Below, in pieces: positions 1 through 31,241 of a stretch of 31,241 nucleotides of DNA (position 1 is its first letter; each line of letters begins with the position of its first letter). Below the pieces are notes generated by a model. That model was not told where the DNA came from. It saw nothing but the letters and a program-made list of their open reading frames with translations, and did no database searches. Origin of the DNA: a virus; the IMG/VR virus record IMGVR_UViG_3300031972_001005, positions 1 through 31,241 of that record. The stretch is one strand, 5' to 3'. The position numbers and the translations under genes are program-made.

Positions 1-505
1 CGCTTTCTGTTCCTCCTCGGTAGCATTAAAATAATAGTAGTTTGCTACGCTTTCGTAATCTATCTTAATAAATCTATACGCAAAGTTTTTTAGGGTTTCT
101 TTTTGCTTGTCTGTTAGATCAAACTCGTCTAACGCTTTTATTTTTTCGTTATACTTATCCAAGTTTAAGCACCACTCCAGTTTGAGTTCGGGCTTTTCTT
201 TAGGCTCGTAGTACATAGATTTGTACTCTAGCCCACTTAATAATTCGGTGTCTTTTATAGTAGGAACTTTAACACTCCAGTCCTCTAGGTCTTTTATATC
301 CCATTCGTTTGCCAGTACCTCGAAATCCCAGTCTCCAAAAGAAACGTTGTCTTTTACTATAAACTCCTTTTGCTCTGCCTCGGTAAGATCTTTAGCCTTT
401 ACTATATACACGTCCTCTATCCCCGCCTCTACGCAAGCCCTGTAACGCATATTGCCTCCCAGTATTACGTTATCCTCATTTACTACGATAGGTCGCAGTT
501 CTAGC
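1..505. repeat. Left copy of the terminal direct repeat (circular overlap)
   Basis: Bases 1-505 align without gaps to 30737-31241. They differ at 14 positions: 91, 142, 169, 184, 211, 217, 232, 250, 265, 274, 295, 315, 385 and 414. Only position 414 changes an amino acid (Asp to Asn in the ParB-like protein). The repeat ends exactly at the window ends, as expected for an overlap of a circular or circularly permuted molecule. Confidence 0.93.
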
Positions 506-621
506 ATCTTCGGAAATTCCCTTATAGATCTTACTAGCTTTTCGAACTTATAATCTTTTATAACCCTTGGATTATTAGGGTTAAGATTAATACTGCTTAT
601 AGGTACTTTAGTTGTATTCAT
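1..621 (-). CDS. ParB/sulfiredoxin-fold N-terminal domain protein, C-terminus cut by window start
   Basis: The gene starts at the ATG at 621 and runs off the left end after 207 codons. It opens MNTTKVPISSINLNPNNPRV, the usual beginning of a ParB/Srx domain, and carries the GGNMRYRA motif at about residues 55-62 that matches the ParB GG.RR.A box. ParB-like domains bind DNA, and many use CTP or act as nucleases; in phages they often sit beside DNA-modification or terminase genes. The missing C-terminus is present at the right end (30632-30736), and joining the ends gives a 241-residue protein. It lies 30 bases downstream of the DnaA-domain gene. The role is inferred; the domain call is fairly secure. 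Confidence 0.8.
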   Translation of the reverse strand, partial: MNTTKVPISSINLNPNNPRVIKDYKFEKLVRSIREFPKMLELRPIVVNEDNVILGGNMRYRACVEAGIEDVYIVKAKDLTEAEQKEFIVKDNVSFGDWDFEVLANEWDIKDLEDWSVKVPTIKDTELLSGLEYKSMYYEPKEKPELKLEWCLNLDKYNEKIKALDEFDLTDKQKETLKNFAYRFIKIDYESVANYYYFNATEEEQKA

Positions 622-3733: not shown

Positions 3734-3882
3734 TTATCCCCTACATTTAATTCGATATCGTTCCACTCCTCACGCCTACGATCGCAACCGCAGTCTTTTC
3801 CTCTCCATTTACTTATACGCTTTACTATCCAACGAATACCAGTATATCGAGTGATAGTATAAACTAGGTCGCCTAGTCTCAT
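3712..3882 (-). CDS. Hypothetical 56-residue protein with CGCDRRREEWN motif
   Basis: ATG at 3882 (ATGA overlap with the upstream gene's stop), end at 3712. The product begins MRLGDLVYTITRYTGIRWIV and contains KRISKWRGKDCGCDRRREEW. The Cys-x-Cys then basic and aromatic residues resemble a short motif seen in small Bacteroidota phage proteins. It overlaps the next gene by 22 bases. Possibly metal- or nucleic-acid-binding; not proven. Confidence 0.68.
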   Translation of the reverse strand: MRLGDLVYTITRYTGIRWIVKRISKWRGKDCGCDRRREEWNDIELNVGDKWKNWIG

Positions 3883-4382
3883 AACGTACTCATAGGATTA
3901 AGGTCGGTATTTTTAATCTCGTAAGTAGGTGCTTTAAGTTTAAAAGTTGTTCCGTCTGTTCTAGTTCTTTCAGTACCTTTTTTAAATTTCTCTCCTCGTT
4001 CCTCTAGTTCCTCTTTAGAAACCCAACCGAGTATAAATAATTCGCTAGTCCTTTTATTAAGGGAGGTAAAAATATAAGTATCGGCTTGTAGGTTTTTCTG
4101 ATACGCTATAAAGTTATTTACGAACTCGGGTCTAGGATCAACGGTACGCCCCATTGTTTTAACGTCTATCTTACGTCCGTAATACTCAAAGTCGTAGCCT
4201 CCGTCAAAGCCCTCGGAGGGATCTCTTTTAATTTTAAAGTGATTTTTTACAGCAGTCTCTCCTAACATTCCTACGTATTGCTCCTGTTTAGATCCATTCG
4301 CAGTATATCGTTTACCGAGGTCGTTTTCTTTTACATAATTCCAAACGCTCTCTTTTAATTGTGGTGTTAATTTAATTCTCAT
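3879..4382 (-). CDS. PD-(D/E)XK-fold endonuclease-like protein
   Basis: 167 residues. E42 in a helix (LGETAVKNHF), then GFDGGYDFEYYGRKIDVKTM with D64, D73 and K75 forms a clear restriction-endonuclease-like core. The C-terminal third is a mixed region ending LNPMSTL. Such stand-alone nucleases in phage early regions serve in recombination, host DNA breakdown or removal of competing DNA. Its start overlaps the end of the sigma factor gene by 4 bases, so production may be tied to that protein. The fold is fairly clear; the substrate is unknown. Confidence 0.72.
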   Translation of the reverse strand: MRIKLTPQLKESVWNYVKENDLGKRYTANGSKQEQYVGMLGETAVKNHFKIKRDPSEGFDGGYDFEYYGRKIDVKTMGRTVDPRPEFVNNFIAYQKNLQADTYIFTSLNKRTSELFILGWVSKEELEERGEKFKKGTERTRTDGTTFKLKAPTYEIKNTDLNPMSTL

Positions 4383-4900
4383 TTTTTTAGTTTTTTATAA
4401 AGTAATTTATCGATTTTATTTTTAGTTCTATAAATAGAGTAGTAATCTATCCCAGTCTTTTTTGATAACTCGAGCATCGAGTACCCCTCTTTATATATCA
4501 ATTCGTAGATTTTTCTATCGTATAGATGCCACGAATTTATCTCGTCTTTTAAAATCTTTAACTCTTGCTCATATTCTAAATTGTTTTCTACCGTAGCTAT
4601 TTTTATAAAATTCTCTCCTACTCGTATCGTTTTTTTTTGTTTTTTACACTTATCTAAATAGAGGTTACGTAATACCAAAAAAACAAAGTAGTAATTAACT
4701 TCGCTTTCGTTAAACATCAACGTTTTATTGTACTTACCTTTCCAGTCGTAGATCTTTAAATACATATCTTGGACCAAATCCTCGGCCTCTACATCTAGAC
4801 CGAAAGATCTAGCAACTCGCACCCACTTACTATGGGATCTTGCCATTATTTCTAAAACCTCTACCAAACTGTGAACTTTATACCGATTACTAAAAAACAA
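4379..4900 (-). CDS. Sigma-70 family RNA polymerase sigma factor
   Basis: 173 residues, the size of an ECF-type sigma factor with only regions 2 and 4. Region 2 is visible around residues 35-55 (LDVEAEDLVQDMYLKIYDW; compare the DLVQE.F core-binding motif). Region 4 lies near residues 125-168: WHLYDRKIYELIYKEGYSML followed by ELSKKTGIDYYSIYRTKNKI, a helix-turn-helix. It would redirect host RNA polymerase to phage promoters, perhaps late ones that lack a good host-type consensus. It overlaps the tiny gene upstream by 40 bases. No promoter was seen directly in front of it. Confidence 0.8.
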   Translation of the reverse strand: MFFSNRYKVHSLVEVLEIMARSHSKWVRVARSFGLDVEAEDLVQDMYLKIYDWKGKYNKTLMFNESEVNYYFVFLVLRNLYLDKCKKQKKTIRVGENFIKIATVENNLEYEQELKILKDEINSWHLYDRKIYELIYKEGYSMLELSKKTGIDYYSIYRTKNKIDKLLYKKLKK

Positions 4901-5010
4901 AATGTAAGCCTCTTATATCTAACATTGCTCAATTCGTCGTAGTCTTCGTCGTATAAAATTCCTAGCATAACTCCGCTAATAAAAACTTGCTCTATATGTA
5001 TCCCGTTCAT
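4861..5010 (-). CDS. Small hydrophobic protein, 49 residues
   Basis: ATG at 5010 (ATGA overlap with the gene upstream). Two hydrophobic stretches flank an acidic loop: IEQVFISGVMLGILYDEDYDE and, near the end, RLTFCFLVIGIKFTVW. Probably a small membrane protein. The last 40 bases overlap the sigma factor start in another frame, so translation of the two may be coupled. Confidence 0.62.
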   Translation of the reverse strand: MNGIHIEQVFISGVMLGILYDEDYDELSNVRYKRLTFCFLVIGIKFTVW

Positions 5011-5117
5011 TTTTTCTCCTTTTTATCTAGCATAGCTTGTATAATCATATATAGATTTGCTACCGCTTTCTCCAGTCTCTCTATCCGTTGTATCTGTGTA
5101 AATTTTTTAGGTTTCAT
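5007..5117 (-). CDS. Hypothetical 36-residue helical protein
   Basis: ATG at 5117, stop at 5007. It starts MKPKKFTQIQRIERLEKAVA and ends in KKEKK; a short helix with Leu/Ile heptad-like spacing that may form a coiled coil. It lies 37 bases below the helicase stop and overlaps the next start as ATGA. Too short for a family call. Confidence 0.55.
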   Translation of the reverse strand: MKPKKFTQIQRIERLEKAVANLYMIIQAMLDKKEKK

Positions 5118-5154
5118 TACTCTAACATTTTAGCTACCGTCTAGGTCGCTCATA

Positions 5155-6069
5155 TCAAAACGGTAAATTCGATTGCTCTCTTAAAGGTTTATCTAGTAAA
5201 GGCTTTCCGTCTATTTCAAAACCGACGTTTCCTACTATACTCTTTAACTTTATAGGATCATCTATCGACGTAGGTCTGCCCCCTGTTTCTATTTCTTTTA
5301 CTTTCCTTACGTGTATAAGAGAATAAAACCAGTCTGTTGGGTGCTGAATGTATCGGTGGATAACCAAAAAATCATCGGCTCGGTTGACAAACTTGCCTCC
5401 TCCCTCCACATCGCTTGCCATAGGTGGGATCGGGTGTCCTGCGTACTCGTGTCCGATAATATGCTTATTTCGTAAAGCATTCGTATTTGCGTGTGTGTTC
5501 AACCATATACTTACTTTATATTTTTTGCAAAAGATCCTAAACTCCGTACAAGCTTGATAGTCGTACTCGTGCCCCCCTATACTACTGCTCATTTCGGGAT
5601 CCTTTATTAAACTATTATAAGGATCAATTAACAGCCCTTGAAAATCCCACGCTTTTTTTAAAGATTTCGCAAGTGCTATTAGCTGTCTATAATTATATAA
5701 CGAAGTAGTATCAACTATTTTAAAATAATCGTAAATATATTTTAAGTGTCCTTCGTAACTTTCCTTATCTATTTTATTAATCGGCTTTTGTTCTAAAAAT
5801 TCTATTAGCTTTCTAACGATACTATGAGCCTCATTTTCGGAAGAAAAAACGAGCCACCTTTTCCCTAGTCTTTTAGCTGTTAAAAGCATTAAGTAAAGAA
5901 CTACGGTTGTCTTACCGACGTTAGCGTGTCCTAGAATTACGTTAAAATTACCCTCCTTAAAGCGTAAATACTCATCTATTTCGCTTATACCTAGTTTAGC
6001 GCCCTCCTTTATTTTTCCAGTTCTGATATCGTTTAATTTAGCTTTTAAGTCCTCAAAGTTTACTAACAT
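5155..6069 (-). CDS. DnaB/RecA-type replicative helicase ATPase
   Basis: 304 residues with a single RecA-like core. Walker A is GHANVGKTT (G47-T55), Walker B is GLLIDPYNS (D149), and the IWLNTHAN motif (about 188-195) matches the sensor region of DnaB-like helicases. A later segment, GGGKFVNRADDFLVIHRY, is also typical. It lacks the N-terminal domain of full DnaB, so it resembles the compact helicases of many Bacteroidota phages. It ends in NLPF, similar to the SSB-like protein encoded upstream. It should unwind phage DNA at the fork. A strong terminator at 6113-6145 lies directly upstream, yet no good promoter follows it, so read-through may be needed. Confidence 0.8.
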   Translation of the reverse strand: MLVNFEDLKAKLNDIRTGKIKEGAKLGISEIDEYLRFKEGNFNVILGHANVGKTTVVLYLMLLTAKRLGKRWLVFSSENEAHSIVRKLIEFLEQKPINKIDKESYEGHLKYIYDYFKIVDTTSLYNYRQLIALAKSLKKAWDFQGLLIDPYNSLIKDPEMSSSIGGHEYDYQACTEFRIFCKKYKVSIWLNTHANTNALRNKHIIGHEYAGHPIPPMASDVEGGGKFVNRADDFLVIHRYIQHPTDWFYSLIHVRKVKEIETGGRPTSIDDPIKLKSIVGNVGFEIDGKPLLDKPLREQSNLPF

Positions 6070-6112
6070 ATTTTTTAATTTTTTATTTTGATTAAAGTTA
6101 TAAAAATTTTTT

Positions 6113-6145
6113 AAAAAAAAAGGGAGACAATTACGCCCCCCTTTT
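6113..6145 (-). terminator. Rho-independent terminator
   Basis: On the minus strand an 11-bp stem (arms 6145-6135 and 6128-6118, with two G-U pairs) closes a 6-base loop, followed by a run of 9 T (6121-6113). It lies 8 bases below the stop of the SSB-like gene. Confidence 0.85.
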
Positions 6146-6153
6146 CAACCTAA

Positions 6154-6465
6154 TTAAAACGGCAGATCATCGTCCGCCTCTCTCGATGCGAGGTGCTTAC
6201 TTACCTCGACTTTCTCTCCTCCACTATTTACCTCCGTATTAGGTTTCCAAGTGCTTAAAGACGCATAAACGTAAGGCTTATTAGTCTCGGGATTAATCTT
6301 TTTAGATCTTAATATATTTATTTCTCCCTTACCTTTATTAGCCTCGAAAACGTCTTTGTGTGCTATTAATAGTTCGCTCAATTCATTTACGTCGAACTTT
6401 AATCTATGTAGGACAAAATCCTGATTGCCCTCATTTACGAACATTCCTTTTACTATTACGCTCAT
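6154..6465 (-). CDS. SSB-like protein with acidic C-terminal tip
   Basis: 103 residues. The C-terminus, SREADDDLPF, is the acidic tip (DDDxPF) by which bacterial and phage single-stranded DNA-binding proteins recruit helicases and nucleases. The body looks beta-rich (MSVIVKGMFVNEGNQDFVLH, then YVYASLSTWKPN), compatible with an OB-fold but not a standard Ssb. It overlaps the gene upstream by 4 bases and is followed by a strong terminator. Probable role: coating single-stranded DNA next to the helicase. Confidence 0.6.
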   Translation of the reverse strand: MSVIVKGMFVNEGNQDFVLHRLKFDVNELSELLIAHKDVFEANKGKGEINILRSKKINPETNKPYVYASLSTWKPNTEVNSGGEKVEVSKHLASREADDDLPF

Positions 6466-6824
6466 TGTTTTAGTAGATTAAAAAAGTTATTAGTATAGGT
6501 TTCTATCTCGCTTAATCCTACCTTACCAGTACTCGCTAATTCGATAGCACCTTTAAAGGCTACCTGTCGCAGGATTAACTCGTCTTTACTTCCAGTTAAA
6601 GTGCTAGTCGGAGGAGGTGCTAAAGGTTTCGCTTTTGGAAACTCGTGCTTATCAGCATCTTGCACCAGTTCGTACGTTACACTCCAACCGACTTGGAGTT
6701 CTTTTTTCTTACCTAGATTAATCTTTTCTCCGTTCTCCAGTTCTAGGTTATGATAGTACAAAGTACCATTTTCCGTTTTGTAAGGTTTAACGCTTACGAT
6801 TGATTTTACTTTACTTGTTTTCAT
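6462..6824 (-). CDS. Putative OB-fold/SSB-like replication protein
   Basis: 120 residues. Residues 1-55 form short beta strands with a pattern (YHNLELENGEKINLGKK, VGWSVTYEL) that suggests an OB-fold. A Pro-rich linker (LAPPPTS) follows, then a helical tail with LILRQVAFKGAIELASTGKV. I recall this two-part layout from putative ssDNA-binding proteins of Bacteroidota phages. It is coupled to the acidic-tip protein downstream (4-base overlap), and the two may act as a pair. Family assignment is tentative. Confidence 0.5.
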   Translation of the reverse strand: MKTSKVKSIVSVKPYKTENGTLYYHNLELENGEKINLGKKKELQVGWSVTYELVQDADKHEFPKAKPLAPPPTSTLTGSKDELILRQVAFKGAIELASTGKVGLSEIETYTNNFFNLLKQ

Positions 6825-6828
6825 TATA

Positions 6829-6999
6829 TTAATTATTAAAAGTTACTTGTTTGGCAATCTCTATTTGTGCCTCTAAAAATTCTATATGCTTACTTAATAG
6901 ATCTATTTTATTATTTAGTCGATCTATTTCACTTCTCAAAGCATTTACTTCGATAGAACGAAGTCGTAAAAGGTCGTCTTTATGTGTCATTTTTCTCAT
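6829..6999 (-). CDS. Hypothetical coiled-coil protein
   Basis: I prefer the start at 6999 (MRKMTHKDD), giving 56 residues. An upstream in-frame ATG at 7044 would add 15 residues that lie entirely over the RHH-like gene and look non-coding. The product is mostly one long helix with heptad spacing: LRSEIDRLNNKIDLLSKHIE. It could pair with the RHH-like protein whose gene it overlaps by 20 bases. Confidence 0.62.
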   Translation of the reverse strand: MRKMTHKDDLLRLRSIEVNALRSEIDRLNNKIDLLSKHIEFLEAQIEIAKQVTFNN

Positions 7000-7132
7000 T
7001 TTTATATTGCTCGGGGTTAAAGATCCTATGCCTAACGTAAGCACTCAACGGCAAACGCTGTTTATCTGCTTCACTCTTTAGGAAAGCCTTATCGCCCTCA
7101 CTTAATTTAATTAAAATTTGCTCGTTATACAT
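6980..7132 (-). CDS. Small ribbon-helix-helix-like protein
   Basis: ATG at 7132, 50 residues. The sequence begins MYNEQILIKLSEGDKAFLKS and continues EADKQRLPLSAYVRHRI. This resembles a short ribbon-helix-helix or MobC-like fold: one beta strand with alternating residues (QILIKL), then two helices with the LPLSAYVR turn. Such proteins are DNA-binding dimers and often repressors. It is the first gene after the terminator at 7186-7216, a fitting place for a regulator of the replication operon. It is the only repressor candidate I see. Confidence 0.6.
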   Translation of the reverse strand: MYNEQILIKLSEGDKAFLKSEADKQRLPLSAYVRHRIFNPEQYKNEKNDT

Positions 7133-7177
7133 ATACTATTGTATTAATTATCGATAGCTAATATAATAAAAATATAC

Positions 7178-7181
7178 CAAA
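7178..7181 (-). promoter_or_regulatory. Possible -33 element of a weak promoter
   Basis: The minus strand reads GTTTGGTA here, the same -33 context as at 28.2 and 27.37 kb, directly below a terminator and above the RHH-like gene. The region 19 bases on (GCTATCGA) does not match TAnnTTTG, so a second factor such as the phage sigma would be needed if it is used. The rest of 7133-7269 holds only this and the terminator. Confidence 0.3.
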
Positions 7182-7185
7182 CGGC

Positions 7186-7216
7186 AAAAAAAAGAGGAGG
7201 TTTTTACACCCCCTCC
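7186..7216 (-). terminator. Rho-independent terminator
   Basis: On the minus strand the arms GGAGG (7216-7212) and CCTCC (7200-7196) enclose an 11-base loop, followed by TC and a run of 8 T (7193-7186). It lies 54 bases below the NinG stop and ends the lysis/NinG transcript. Confidence 0.75.
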
Positions 7217-7269
7217 AATCAAAATAAAACAAGTTAGATAACTTAAAAGACTCGTACGAATATACGAGT

Positions 7270-7665
7270 TTATTTTAACTCCGCAAGTTTTTTCTCGTAA
7301 AATAAAATTAACTCCAGTAGATCCTCGTTAGAAAACTTTACTATTTTTTTACTTAATCTATCTAGATCCTCTGCAACTCCTACGCCAAAAGTAGCGTCTA
7401 TATTTTTACCGAATTTATACTGCTCTCCATATCTAAAGACGTTACAGCTAGCGCACTGAACTTGGCAATTCGTCTCGTTCCAACGAGTAGAATAGTGTTT
7501 ACGAGATTGAAAGTGTCCGCATTGTAGGTTTTTCCAGTAATCAACCTTACCGCAAGTAAAGCACTCGGTAAAGCCTTTATCGTCAGCGTTACGTCTCCTT
7601 ATATACTCACTAAAAACCTTATCCGCTTTATTTACTAAAGTCTTACGGCTTGGTTTTCTAGGCAT
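7270..7665 (-). CDS. ninG: NinG/Rap-like recombination nuclease
   Basis: 131 residues matching the lambda NinG (Rap) family. Cysteine and histidine ligands are visible: C35 and C38 (ECFTCGK), then QCGHFQSRKHYSTRWNE with C49 and H51, then QCASCNVFRYGEQ with C71 and C74. The last part (FSNEDLLELILFYEKKLAEL) is helical, as in the family. NinG cuts branched recombination intermediates. Together with the RecE-like exonuclease it suggests that the phage runs its own recombination. Its start overlaps the stop of the upstream small gene (TAATG). Confidence 0.85.
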   Translation of the reverse strand: MPRKPSRKTLVNKADKVFSEYIRRRNADDKGFTECFTCGKVDYWKNLQCGHFQSRKHYSTRWNETNCQVQCASCNVFRYGEQYKFGKNIDATFGVGVAEDLDRLSKKIVKFSNEDLLELILFYEKKLAELK

Positions 7666-7835
7666 TATATTACTGCGTTATCTAGTATCTGAATTATATG
7701 ACGTATTTCGGATTTTTCGAATTTACCTTTTATTTCAGAGTTATAAGTTTTAAAAGTTAAATCGTACATATCCTTTTCGGCAGTATGTTTATTTTCTTTT
7801 TTTCCGAGATATTCTATTTTAAGATCAAAATTCAT
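7665..7835 (-). CDS. Hypothetical 56-residue protein
   Basis: ATG at 7835, stop overlapping the NinG start. It begins MNFDLKIEYLGKKENKHTAE and ends in a helix with KSEIRHIIQILDNAVI. No family recognised. Its tight coupling to ninG suggests a recombination accessory, which is only a guess. Confidence 0.62.
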   Translation of the reverse strand: MNFDLKIEYLGKKENKHTAEKDMYDLTFKTYNSEIKGKFEKSEIRHIIQILDNAVI

Positions 7836-7874
7836 TTCGATAGTTTTAGTGCCTTAACATAATACTTTTATAAC

Positions 7875-7901
7875 TTTAGCCCTTTTTTGTGTTGGGCTAA
7901 A
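7875..7901. other. Perfect 8-bp hairpin without a U-tract
   Basis: Arms TTTAGCCC and GGGCTAAA (7875-7882 and 7894-7901) with an 11-base loop. On neither strand is it followed by a T-run, so it is not a standard terminator. It lies in the 117-base space between the holin gene and the 56-residue gene; I see nothing else in that space. Confidence 0.6.
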
Positions 7902-7952
7902 AATTTAGTCGCTCAATTACGTTAGGCAAGTTATAATAAATTTTTGACAAAA

Positions 7953-28235: not shown

Positions 28236-29390
28236 TTATTTTATATAGTACTTTCCGTACTGGGGTCGCCCTAACTTATTTACAACAGAGTAACGCAGGG
28301 CATCTAGACTATGATTAAAGGCATCGACAGGCTTATTCGTTAGCTGTCCGTTCTTATCCTCCACGTATTTATAGTTTCTTAACTCCTTTATCATATTTAT
28401 ACTATCGTCAGTAACGTAAAGCCTATAACGACGTATCATATCTATCCCGAGGTTTATAGATCCTTTATAAGTCTTTTTAGTATTAAAGCCCATACGATTA
28501 AGTTCCTCTATGCTTTTAGGCTCTGCGCTATCGCACCAAATCTCGTCTCGTCTATCTAGACCTAATCTTTTAAATTCGTTTCCTAGATCTTGGTTAGTCA
28601 TTCCAGTTCGATATATCAACTCCCTAGCGTACATATTATCGCCCTCGATATACGTCTCCACTAACGCAGAACTATCGTTAGAAAATCCAAAGTCGAGACC
28701 TCTCCCTACTAGCTTTGCAGTCGGAGGGATACTCGGGGTGGTCGTAAAGTTAAATACTAGAGATCTACTTCGACCTCGTTCTCCTAGACCATAGACACGC
28801 CAATACTCCTCGTCGATATCCTTTAGCCGTTCTATCTCTTTTACTATAACATCACTTAAAAAAGTATTATCTCGATAAGTAGTCTGATAAAACTCTACGT
28901 CGTCTCTCTCCAGTACTTTATCGTAGATCCAGTGAAACTCCTCGCTAGGATTATAGTCGATAACTATTTTCTCCGTAGTTCTAAATATAAGTTGTTGCCA
29001 GTCCTCGAAGTTTAGTTCGTTAGCCTCGTTAATAAAAAGGAGATCCCTTTTACGGCCTCGTATTTTAGTAGGTTGATCTAGGCTTATAAACTCTATTCGG
29101 TTTCCATTAAGAAAATACTCGTGGGTGCTTTTCGAATGATACTCCTCAAAGTAAAGTCCGTAGGTTTTTATAATCTCAAAAAAATCTCGCATAACCGTAC
29201 CTCGTACAGCTGGAAAAGTCTTACGCACTATCGTTATAGTCTTACCAGTATTTTTAACGCAGTAACTAGCAATAATCCATAAAAGTATGTTGTAGGTTTT
29301 TCCGCTCCTAGTTCCGCCTTGCTCAACTACGATTTTTTTCTTGCTCTTTTCTAGATGCTTAAAAACTATATTACTCTTTATCGTCGTCAA
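28236..29390 (-). CDS. terL: Terminase large subunit
   Basis: 384 residues, compact. The ATPase has Walker A GGTRSGKT (25-32) and Walker B LLFINEAN (117-124, E122 catalytic). The nuclease domain has acidic residues at D233 (GLDFGFSND), D287 (WCDSAEP) and D356/D363 (PVDAFNHSLDALRY). It pumps DNA into the head and cuts it. The terminal redundancy of the window with no fixed end site suits headful packaging, although the enzyme class cannot be fixed from motifs alone. It overlaps the small subunit gene by 20 bases. Confidence 0.93.
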   Translation of the reverse strand: MTTIKSNIVFKHLEKSKKKIVVEQGGTRSGKTYNILLWIIASYCVKNTGKTITIVRKTFPAVRGTVMRDFFEIIKTYGLYFEEYHSKSTHEYFLNGNRIEFISLDQPTKIRGRKRDLLFINEANELNFEDWQQLIFRTTEKIVIDYNPSEEFHWIYDKVLERDDVEFYQTTYRDNTFLSDVIVKEIERLKDIDEEYWRVYGLGERGRSRSLVFNFTTTPSIPPTAKLVGRGLDFGFSNDSSALVETYIEGDNMYARELIYRTGMTNQDLGNEFKRLGLDRRDEIWCDSAEPKSIEELNRMGFNTKKTYKGSINLGIDMIRRYRLYVTDDSINMIKELRNYKYVEDKNGQLTNKPVDAFNHSLDALRYSVVNKLGRPQYGKYYIK

Positions 29391-29739
29391 GTCCTTTTAT
29401 AATTTGTACGTCGAATAATTTAGTTCCGTCCACGTTCAGATCCATTTGCTGACGTTCTACGTATCCTCTCTTTTTTCCTTTTGTCTTTAAGTAGAATATA
29501 GTAGAGGGAGTATTATTGCCTCGTATTTGCTCGAATAGTTTACTCTCCACAAAGTCCAACGCAATCTGTTCGACCTCATCAACAGCCTTACGAAAGTCCT
29601 CGTCCTCTTTTATCCAATCGTAAACGGTTGTCCTACCTATCCCTGTAATCTTACAGGCTGTCGTTTTCACTCCGAGGCTTTTCTCTAACGCCTCTAGATA
29701 TTTCTTTTTATTATGTTCGGTATGTTCGGTATTTCTCAT
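29371..29739 (-). CDS. terS: Terminase small subunit
   Basis: 122 residues. A helix-turn-helix near residues 25-46 (TTACKITGIGRTTVYDWIKE) is followed by a helical oligomerisation region (FRKAVDEVEQIALDFVESKL) and a C-terminal segment with STIFYLKTKGKKRGYVERQQ that resembles known small terminase ends. It recognises the packaging start on the phage DNA. It overlaps the glycosyltransferase gene by 4 bases and the large subunit by 20. Confidence 0.85.
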   Translation of the reverse strand: MRNTEHTEHNKKKYLEALEKSLGVKTTACKITGIGRTTVYDWIKEDEDFRKAVDEVEQIALDFVESKLFEQIRGNNTPSTIFYLKTKGKKRGYVERQQMDLNVDGTKLFDVQIIKGLDDDKE

Positions 29740-30635
29740 TTTCTTTTAGGTTCGTTAGTAAAAGGAACGTCCTCGGGGTAACTATCCCAAGCGATATTAT
29801 TTCTTTTACCTTTTATTATTTTAGGATAGAGGTAACGAGCATTTATTTTATGGTGTAACCTCCCTCCGTTCTTCTGTTGCTTTTCAGCGTGTATCGCAGT
29901 AGGAAATTGTATCGGAGTTACTAGGGATTTGTTTAATAGTTTATTCTCCCTATATAGATCCGTAAGCCCTCCCTCTTGCTTTGCACTTGCAGTCTGTGCC
30001 AATACTAGACCACTAGCTAAAGATCCAGTAAAATATCCCTCGTTCATTATACCAACGAATTGCGAGGTATCGTCGTCTTGTATCCCTCTCTCTCCTCGAT
30101 ATATATATTTAGTGTTTATAAAGGTTGTATTCATTACCTTGTTTCGTAGAACGTTCAAATAGGGTACTGCAAACATATCGCCTGTTTGACTTAATCCAAA
30201 TACGCCTATTTTTCTTTTTATCATAAACTCCCTAATCGCATCAAAAACGTTCACTAGATCCTCGCCATTAGCCGACCTAGTATAAACAGCATACGGCCTG
30301 ACTTGATAATTTGTAGTATCGTCGTCTATCACTAAATAGAAGTCTATACCTAGATCCTTTACTAAATCGTAAAACATATTACGAGCCTGTCCTGCGGATC
30401 TCCTGCTTACGCTAGGTCTATGCACATAATCAAAACGAGCCCTTGCCTCCTCCATATTAAAAATATGTAAATTACAGCCCAGTAACTCTGTTTCGTTTTC
30501 GTAGTCCACTCTATCGTCTGCCTCGTCGTCTATAACGATATGTATTTTCTTGGGATCCCACCCCTTTTTTAAAAAGTATTTAGCAGTCTTGACGTTGTAA
30601 GGTCTGTGATAGCTAGGTATTAATATATCGATCAT
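29736..30635 (-). CDS. TAGT-like glycosyltransferase (GT-A fold)
   Basis: 299 residues. The start MIDILIPSYHRPYNVKTAKY is a GT-A nucleotide-binding opening. D104-D106 (FYLVIDDDTTNY) form the DxD-type motif that holds the metal and sugar nucleotide, and GIQDDDTSQFVG is a second acidic motif. The pattern matches the TET-associated glycosyltransferases of phages described in studies of DNA base modification, but no TET/JBP oxygenase is visible here. It could glucosylate modified bases or another target. It lies between the ParB-like and terminase genes with 4-base overlaps on both sides. Confidence 0.72.
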   Translation of the reverse strand: MIDILIPSYHRPYNVKTAKYFLKKGWDPKKIHIVIDDEADDRVDYENETELLGCNLHIFNMEEARARFDYVHRPSVSRRSAGQARNMFYDLVKDLGIDFYLVIDDDTTNYQVRPYAVYTRSANGEDLVNVFDAIREFMIKRKIGVFGLSQTGDMFAVPYLNVLRNKVMNTTFINTKYIYRGERGIQDDDTSQFVGIMNEGYFTGSLASGLVLAQTASAKQEGGLTDLYRENKLLNKSLVTPIQFPTAIHAEKQQKNGGRLHHKINARYLYPKIIKGKRNNIAWDSYPEDVPFTNEPKRK

Positions 30636-31241
30636 AGTTCAAAGCCCTCGTCTGTAAAATTATATATTCGCAATAGGTCGTCCTCCACAAAGCCGTTAAC
30701 TCCATCGTCTGTAAGTACAAGTCGCAACCTCTCTATCGCTTTCTGTTCCTCCTCGGTAGCATTAAAATAATAGTAGTTTGCTACGCTTTCGTAATCTATC
30801 TTAATAAATCTATACGCAAAGTTTTTAAGGGTTTCTTTTTGCTTGTCTGTTAGATCAAACTCGTCTAACGCTTTTATCTTTTCGTTATACTTATCCAAGT
30901 TTAAACACCACTCCAGTTTTAGTTCGGGCTTTTCTTTAGGCTCGTAATACATTGATTTGTACTCTAGACCACTTAATAATTCGGTATCTTTTATAGTAGG
31001 CACTTTAACGCTCCAGTCCTCTAGGTCTTTAATATCCCATTCGTTTGCCAATACCTCGAAATCCCAGTCTCCAAAAGAAACGTTGTCTTTTACTATAAAC
31101 TCCTTTTGCTCTGCCTCGGTTAGATCTTTAGCCTTTACTATATACACGTTCTCTATCCCCGCCTCTACGCAAGCCCTGTAACGCATATTGCCTCCCAGTA
31201 TTACGTTATCCTCATTTACTACGATAGGTCGCAGTTCTAGC
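30632..31241 (-). CDS. ParB-like protein, N-terminus cut by window end
   Basis: This is the second, partial copy of the gene at 1-621. It lacks residues 1-38 but has the C-terminal 35 residues (ERLRLVLTDDGVNGFVEDDL and on) missing at the left end. An internal ATG at 31186 (MRYRACVEAG) is not the true start. Middle region: EFIVKDNVSFGDWDFEVLAN is the ParB C-terminal part of the fold. It shows one residue change from the left copy (Asn for Asp in GIENVYI). The stop overlaps the glycosyltransferase start as ATGA. On the circular map both partial genes are one gene. Confidence 0.8.
   Translation of the reverse strand, partial: LELRPIVVNEDNVILGGNMRYRACVEAGIENVYIVKAKDLTEAEQKEFIVKDNVSFGDWDFEVLANEWDIKDLEDWSVKVPTIKDTELLSGLEYKSMYYEPKEKPELKLEWCLNLDKYNEKIKALDEFDLTDKQKETLKNFAYRFIKIDYESVANYYYFNATEEEQKAIERLRLVLTDDGVNGFVEDDLLRIYNFTDEGFEL
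30737..31241. repeat. Right copy of the terminal direct repeat
   Basis: Gap-free match to bases 1-505 with 14 substitutions. Offset is 30736, so the unit genome is about 30,736 bp if the ends are the same locus. Confidence 0.93.

Follow-up and report, generated by a model that had tools for sequence, protein, structure and literature searches.

A TAGT glycosyltransferase and its partner domain as a candidate exchangeable DNA-modification cassette beside phage terminase genes

Introduction

The TAGT of phage T6 requires glucosylated hydroxymethylcytosine as its acceptor (PMC13216743, PMC13390438). Solitary TAGTs occur in 288 of 753 phage genomes, and their function was left undefined in the 2026 paper describing them (PMC13216743), whose main text makes no mention of ParB. 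The same study reports that the T4 alpha-glucosyltransferase copurifies with the gp45 sliding clamp and that clamp binding is not the main explanation of the linkage ratio (PMC13216743).

Here we analyze a TAGT locus in virus record IMGVR_UViG_3300031972_001005, the whole 31,241-nucleotide stretch of which we call the window. Its enzyme appears to be of the solitary class, with no alpha- or beta-glucosyltransferase alongside it (PMC13216743).

Results

Organization of the locus

The genes of the locus run on the minus strand in the order ParB-like protein, glycosyltransferase, small terminase subunit (TerS; 122 aa; positions 29371 to 29739; PHROG 4044, E = 3.5 × 10−10), and large terminase subunit (TerL; 384 aa; 28236 to 29390; Pfam Terminase_3, E = 6.3 × 10−25). 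The overlaps in the original prediction were all found again on this strand, namely, two 4-base ATGA overlaps at 30632 to 30635 and 29736 to 29739 (TCAT on the plus strand) and the 20-base overlap of TerS and TerL. The two ends of the window carry a gapless direct repeat of 505 bp (1 to 505 and 30737 to 31241; 97.2% identical, 14 mismatches). The repeat probably marks the record as a complete genome of ~30.7 kb that closes into a circle, even though it is 97% rather than 100% identical, and we read its inexactness as what a closed genome assembled from a mixed population would give. Because the repeat joins the contig ends, the N terminus of the ParB-like protein lies at 621 to 1, and the protein, once joined, is 241 residues long, of which residues 1 to 207 are encoded at 1 to 621 (minus strand) and residues 40 to 241, in an overlapping copy, at 30632 to 31240 (minus strand). 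The gene just upstream (652 to 1074) weakly resembles the C-terminal domain of DnaA (E = 0.04).

A TAGT with a GT-A fold

The glycosyltransferase (299 aa; 29736 to 30635, minus strand) had been proposed to be a TAGT from its letters alone, and both profile and structural analyses bear this out. It matches PF20691 with 46.4 bits against a curated cutoff of 27.5 (E = 5.9 × 10−12), as well as PHROG 842, and its predicted structure (pLDDT, 80.6; pTM, 0.83) retrieves GT-A folds, the best being N-acetylglucosaminyltransferase I (Z = 12.0), with phage TAGTs also among the matches. Its conserved residues comprise a DDD motif (residues 104 to 106), D189, and H261/H262, and the DD of the motif is kept in all 91 nonredundant relatives. 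It is hence a true TAGT with a GT-A fold and an intact DDD motif. A phmmer search of PDB sequences, a plasmid search, and an NCBIfam scan returned no match for this protein. The seed TAGT hidden Markov model (HMM) did not match the T6 TAGT, so the link to T6 depends on PF20691 and PHROG 842. Its family and context led us to reject the alternative of a cell wall glycosyltransferase.

A two-domain ParB-like partner

The ParB-like protein gives PHROG ParB-like matches at E values of about 10−15, while its truncated open reading frame reaches only E = 0.05 against Pfam ParB_N. Aligned partners from Bacteroidota, Lactobacillus, Nocardia, Escherichia coli, and haloarchaeal phages display an N-terminal ParB domain (ParB-N) followed by a domain of ~95 residues (CTD), whereas Vibrio phage pv27 has a partner made up of the CTD alone. 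A structural model built on a 97% identical copy (L010; pLDDT, 79.0) yields a match list filled by ParB-N folds and spanning model residues 1 to 121, the best being a CTP-analogue-bound ParB (Z = 13.1; 33% identity over 92 residues). We place ParB-N at about residues 1 to 124 (window 621 to 250, minus strand). The CTD, delineated by an HMM across loci and an alignment of 87 nonredundant copies, falls within residues ~134 to 241 (30635 to 30958, minus strand); R53, A63, and E79 are invariant, and Y66, L83, V84, and D87 are conserved in 98 to 99% of the copies. Among the relatives of the CTD, no Pfam or NCBIfam model scored above its cutoff, and NCBIfam returned no match for the CTD itself. The protein can thus be described, from its sequence relationships, as ParB-N joined to a CTD that seems to have no existing Pfam or NCBIfam model, and we present this description as new.

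That partition ParBs match ParB-N at Z = 13 raises the question of whether the gene merely serves plasmid-like partition of the phage, its adjacency to the TAGT being incidental. This is very improbable: CTD and TAGT persist together in several loci devoid of ParB-N, in relatives, ParB-N adjoins DNA methyltransferases and Mom or is fused to them, and no ParA was recognized among the window genes scanned. Family and context thus led us to reject a partition role.

The CTD is a near-obligate neighbor of the TAGT

In relatives with enough flanking sequence, ParB-CTD is encoded directly upstream of the TAGT, nearly always with an overlap or a gap of a few bases, and this retention shows that the arrangement is not due to chance. 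The CTD adjoins the TAGT in 105 of 107 viral and phage loci (three overlapping searches, 81 unique TAGT sequences; eight more loci lack room for a CTD). One of the two exceptions, L004, is an artifact of an overlong open reading frame call, and the other, L134, has a 0.9-kb gap. None of the viral and phage loci has a CTD without a TAGT, and a separate CTD search of the phage collection recovered 28 records, all of them among the TAGT records. In host genomes of many phyla, the CTD lies beside the TAGT in 43 of 44 loci (the exception being L248), and the pair is also present in a haloarchaeal virus. ParB-N, on the other hand, is missing from several loci where CTD and TAGT remain. A search for the four-gene block in related phages had been proposed as a check. 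The block is widely conserved; its constant part is the CTD and the TAGT, with the CTD as a near-obligate partner domain, and the adjoining terminase type changes.

A literature search that did not cover the 2013 TET/JBP study of Iyer et al. in NAR, which is said to have defined the TAGT family and may reportedly show ParB neighbors, found nothing joining ParB, a glycosyltransferase, and hypermodification; the novelty of the CTD-TAGT pairing is not proven.

Variations on the pair were also seen. Five loci (L221, L225, L226, L231, and L232) have one ParB-CTD followed by two tandem TAGTs; in L226, a radical SAM gene comes next, and L231 and L232 look similar by eye.

CTD and TAGT are exchanged together

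Comparisons between close relatives locate the unit of exchange. L087, a near twin whose TerL is 96% identical to that of the window, has 87 to 90% DNA identity to it up to about codon 124 of the ParB-like gene and again from the end of the TAGT gene. The intervening segment (window 29746 to 30986, minus strand) has no blastn homology to L087, which instead carries, from the end of ParB-N to TerS, a different CTD and a TAGT of class II. Identities between the two are 88 to 94% for ParB-N, 29 to 35% for the CTD, and 24 to 25% for the TAGT. Likewise, homology between Lactobacillus phages jlb1 and Lj771 stops at about ParB codon 117 and resumes near TerS, and an adenine methyltransferase in Lj771 occupies the position of CTD and TAGT in jlb1. 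Over 82 triples, TAGT distances correlate more strongly with those of the CTD (0.91; partial, 0.83) than with those of ParB-N (0.70; partial, 0.15). The CTD-TAGT correlation is weak (0.18) when class II is taken by itself, so this argument depends on class I and the contrast between classes. The CTD and the TAGT are therefore exchanged as a unit, apart from ParB-N.

The slot upstream of TerS holds DNA-modifying enzymes

We scored the slot between ParB-N and TerS for 68 unique ParB-N relatives in the terminase clade of the window. These were retrieved by TerL and ParB similarity, and the counts are hence no census: CTD-TAGT, 15; TAGT without CTD, 14; Mom, 12; methyltransferase, 12; TET/JBP-containing, 6; ABC ATPase, 4; GT-B, 1; and unassigned, 4. 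No ParB-N is visible in a further 25 loci, of which nine offer little sequence upstream. Methyltransferases were assigned by BLAST against curated references, the corresponding HMM having been dropped because of a fusion seed and ParB-N contamination. The TET/JBP proteins occur with an amino acid:DNA transferase (ADDT), and Bacteroides phage BS-TP3 has ParB, methyltransferase, TerS, and TerL in the same order as in the window.

Some slot methyltransferases are accompanied by further enzymes, with AdoMet decarboxylase or AdoMet synthetase adjoining ParB-methyltransferase proteins in L095 (2613 to 4140) and L104 (400 to 2289). In the slot of L098 (2279 to 4650), an unfamiliar cassette combines ParB-N, a protein resembling ABC ATPases, and a formyltransferase.

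The original prediction allowed for a capsid or packaging protein as the target. In its broader form, the TAGT would glycosylate a protein (its own CTD partner, the terminase, or the capsid) in the manner of GREB1, a distant eukaryotic relative of TAGT for which protein glycosylation has been proposed. NCBI indeed names the E. coli homolog GREB1-related, enzymes that act on proteins or glycans, as well as glycogenin, are among the best PDB fold matches of the TAGT model, and the near-invariant Tyr of the CTD (86 of 87 copies) might, by analogy with glycogenin, be the acceptor; the joint exchange of CTD and TAGT would also fit. We nevertheless judge this rather unlikely. DNA-directed enzymes occupy the same slot in close relatives, the usual neighbors are ParB-N and replication genes, and the unit is found beside several terminase types. 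A slot shared with DNA-marking enzymes, along with CTDs that lack ParB-N and lie among replication genes, favors DNA as the substrate, as do the breakpoints described above; the argument from the slot is an indirect one.

Packaging and replication contexts

The coupling of the TAGT to packaging that was originally suggested is not borne out in that form by the wider comparison. The terminase type next to the unit varies between loci, and in HHTV-2 the pair lies ~3 kb from TerL. Several units without ParB-N reside among replication genes: family A polymerase and beta-clamp genes precede the unit in L243, a primase-helicase does so in L244, an AAA ATPase in L242, and a polymerase in L260, while in L250 the unit precedes a weak beta-clamp match below the cutoff and in Vibrio phage pv27 it stands between the primase and helicase genes. 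L251, which is cut at a contig end, was left out of this count. Packaging linkage is common but not obligatory, and we infer from these contexts that ParB-N and the replisome may be alternative routes to DNA.

The L260 locus (3860 to 7931) is a close series of three TAGTs and one CTD, followed by a UDP-galactopyranose mutase, hinting at galactofuranose as a possible donor sugar and at chain building.

The acceptor

In line with the original remark that no TET/JBP oxygenase or base-synthesis gene is visible, profile searches found no TET/JBP (PF12851), thymidylate synthase/hydroxymethylase (PF00303), or C5-methyltransferase (PF00145) in the window genome; the negative PF00303 search also covers the dCMP hydroxymethylase of the T-even pathway. 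Across 25 TAGT records (16 from IMG/VR, some of them fragments, and 9 phages), PF12851 and PF00145 had no match, and PF00303 had a single one, in the 191-kb phage pv27; PF00303 was likewise absent from nine further slot clade records, including ones with a TAGT without CTD. As a positive control, the TET search recovered TET in all three records known to have it. Such family-level negatives leave room for an unrecognized base-modifying enzyme among uncharacterized genes. The earlier proposal of an unusual acceptor was a fair inference, since no acceptor-making family matched, but a host-made one is less likely, as the pair spans hosts of many phyla and a haloarchaeal virus.

Transfer onto a hydroxylated pyrimidine that the host or an unrecognized phage enzyme supplies would agree with the characterized chemistry of TAGTs, which, as far as known, always involves such acceptors (PMC13390438, PMC13216743). 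TET is likewise missing from the loci of the 14 relatives whose TAGT has no CTD, so that acceptor supply may go unrecognized, and for most genes of the window no function has been assigned. Against this stand the search results for the 25 records, with a thymidylate synthase relative only in the 191-kb phage, and the breadth of hosts, across all of which a host-made acceptor would need to occur. We regard this alternative as somewhat unlikely; it too has DNA as the substrate, and our confidence in it overlaps with that in the preferred reading set out below. As the searches turned up no acceptor-making enzyme, an ordinary base, or some other group that all hosts share, is the most likely acceptor. 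A tentative extension is that CTD and TAGT constitute a two-component enzyme, spread among bacterial and archaeal phages, that places a sugar onto an unmodified DNA base in a single step and needs no hydroxylation beforehand. With an ordinary base as the acceptor, DNA would be glycosylated by a new route.

Discussion

We think it probable that the locus is a swappable DNA-modification cassette beside the terminase genes, in which the TAGT and its cognate CTD sugar-tag phage DNA. As a metal-dependent GT-A glycosyltransferase, the TAGT would take a sugar from a nucleotide-sugar donor and attach it to phage DNA. The CTD would most likely be an adaptor that presents DNA to the TAGT or enables it to act. 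ParB-N, which is separable and has the CTP-binding ParB fold, may be a clamp-like tether keeping the enzyme on DNA, and replication machinery appears to replace this tether in phages without ParB-N. The sugar mark would probably shield incoming or packaged DNA from restriction.

A near-obligate partner and a slot common to DNA modifiers make the function of solitary TAGTs testable with two genes, and a laboratory system is at hand in E. coli, where 885 of 5,426 complete genomes cover at least 80% of the ParB-TAGT DNA. Escherichia phage vB_EcoS-673R7, whose record is complete, carries an intact CTD and TAGT. In K-12, ynaK-ydaY is a remnant. NCBI annotation marks the E. coli ParB gene as incomplete; in L263 (1501 to 2292), an open ParB-CTD gene is annotated as two, one an incomplete ynaK and the other encoding a hypothetical protein.

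Among known systems, the T6 beta-glucosyl-HMC alpha-glucosyltransferase (ggt) shares PF20691 (E = 10−8 for T6), PHROG 842, and the GT-A fold (PMC13216743) with the window TAGT. It differs in residing in a replication region beside dCMP hydroxymethylase, with no ParB or CTD partner annotated there, in a phage that also carries alpha-gt, whereas no hydroxymethylase or other DNA glucosyltransferase was recognized in the window. No TET is annotated in the T6 stretch examined either; the TET/JBP association gives the TAGT family its name but is not required for membership. Relative to the solitary TAGTs (PMC13216743), the CTD pairing, ParB-N, and the slot are additions made here. Cassettes of ParB-N with Mom, a DNA methyltransferase, or TET/ADDT have the same ParB-N, slot upstream of TerS, and terminase clade but a different DNA-modifying effector and no CTD. 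Finally, the T4 alpha-glucosyltransferase and its gp45 clamp find a parallel, not a homology, in the two CTD-only loci that adjoin clamp-like genes: the T4 enzyme has an unrelated GT-B fold, and the tether in CTD-TAGT phages is a putative one.
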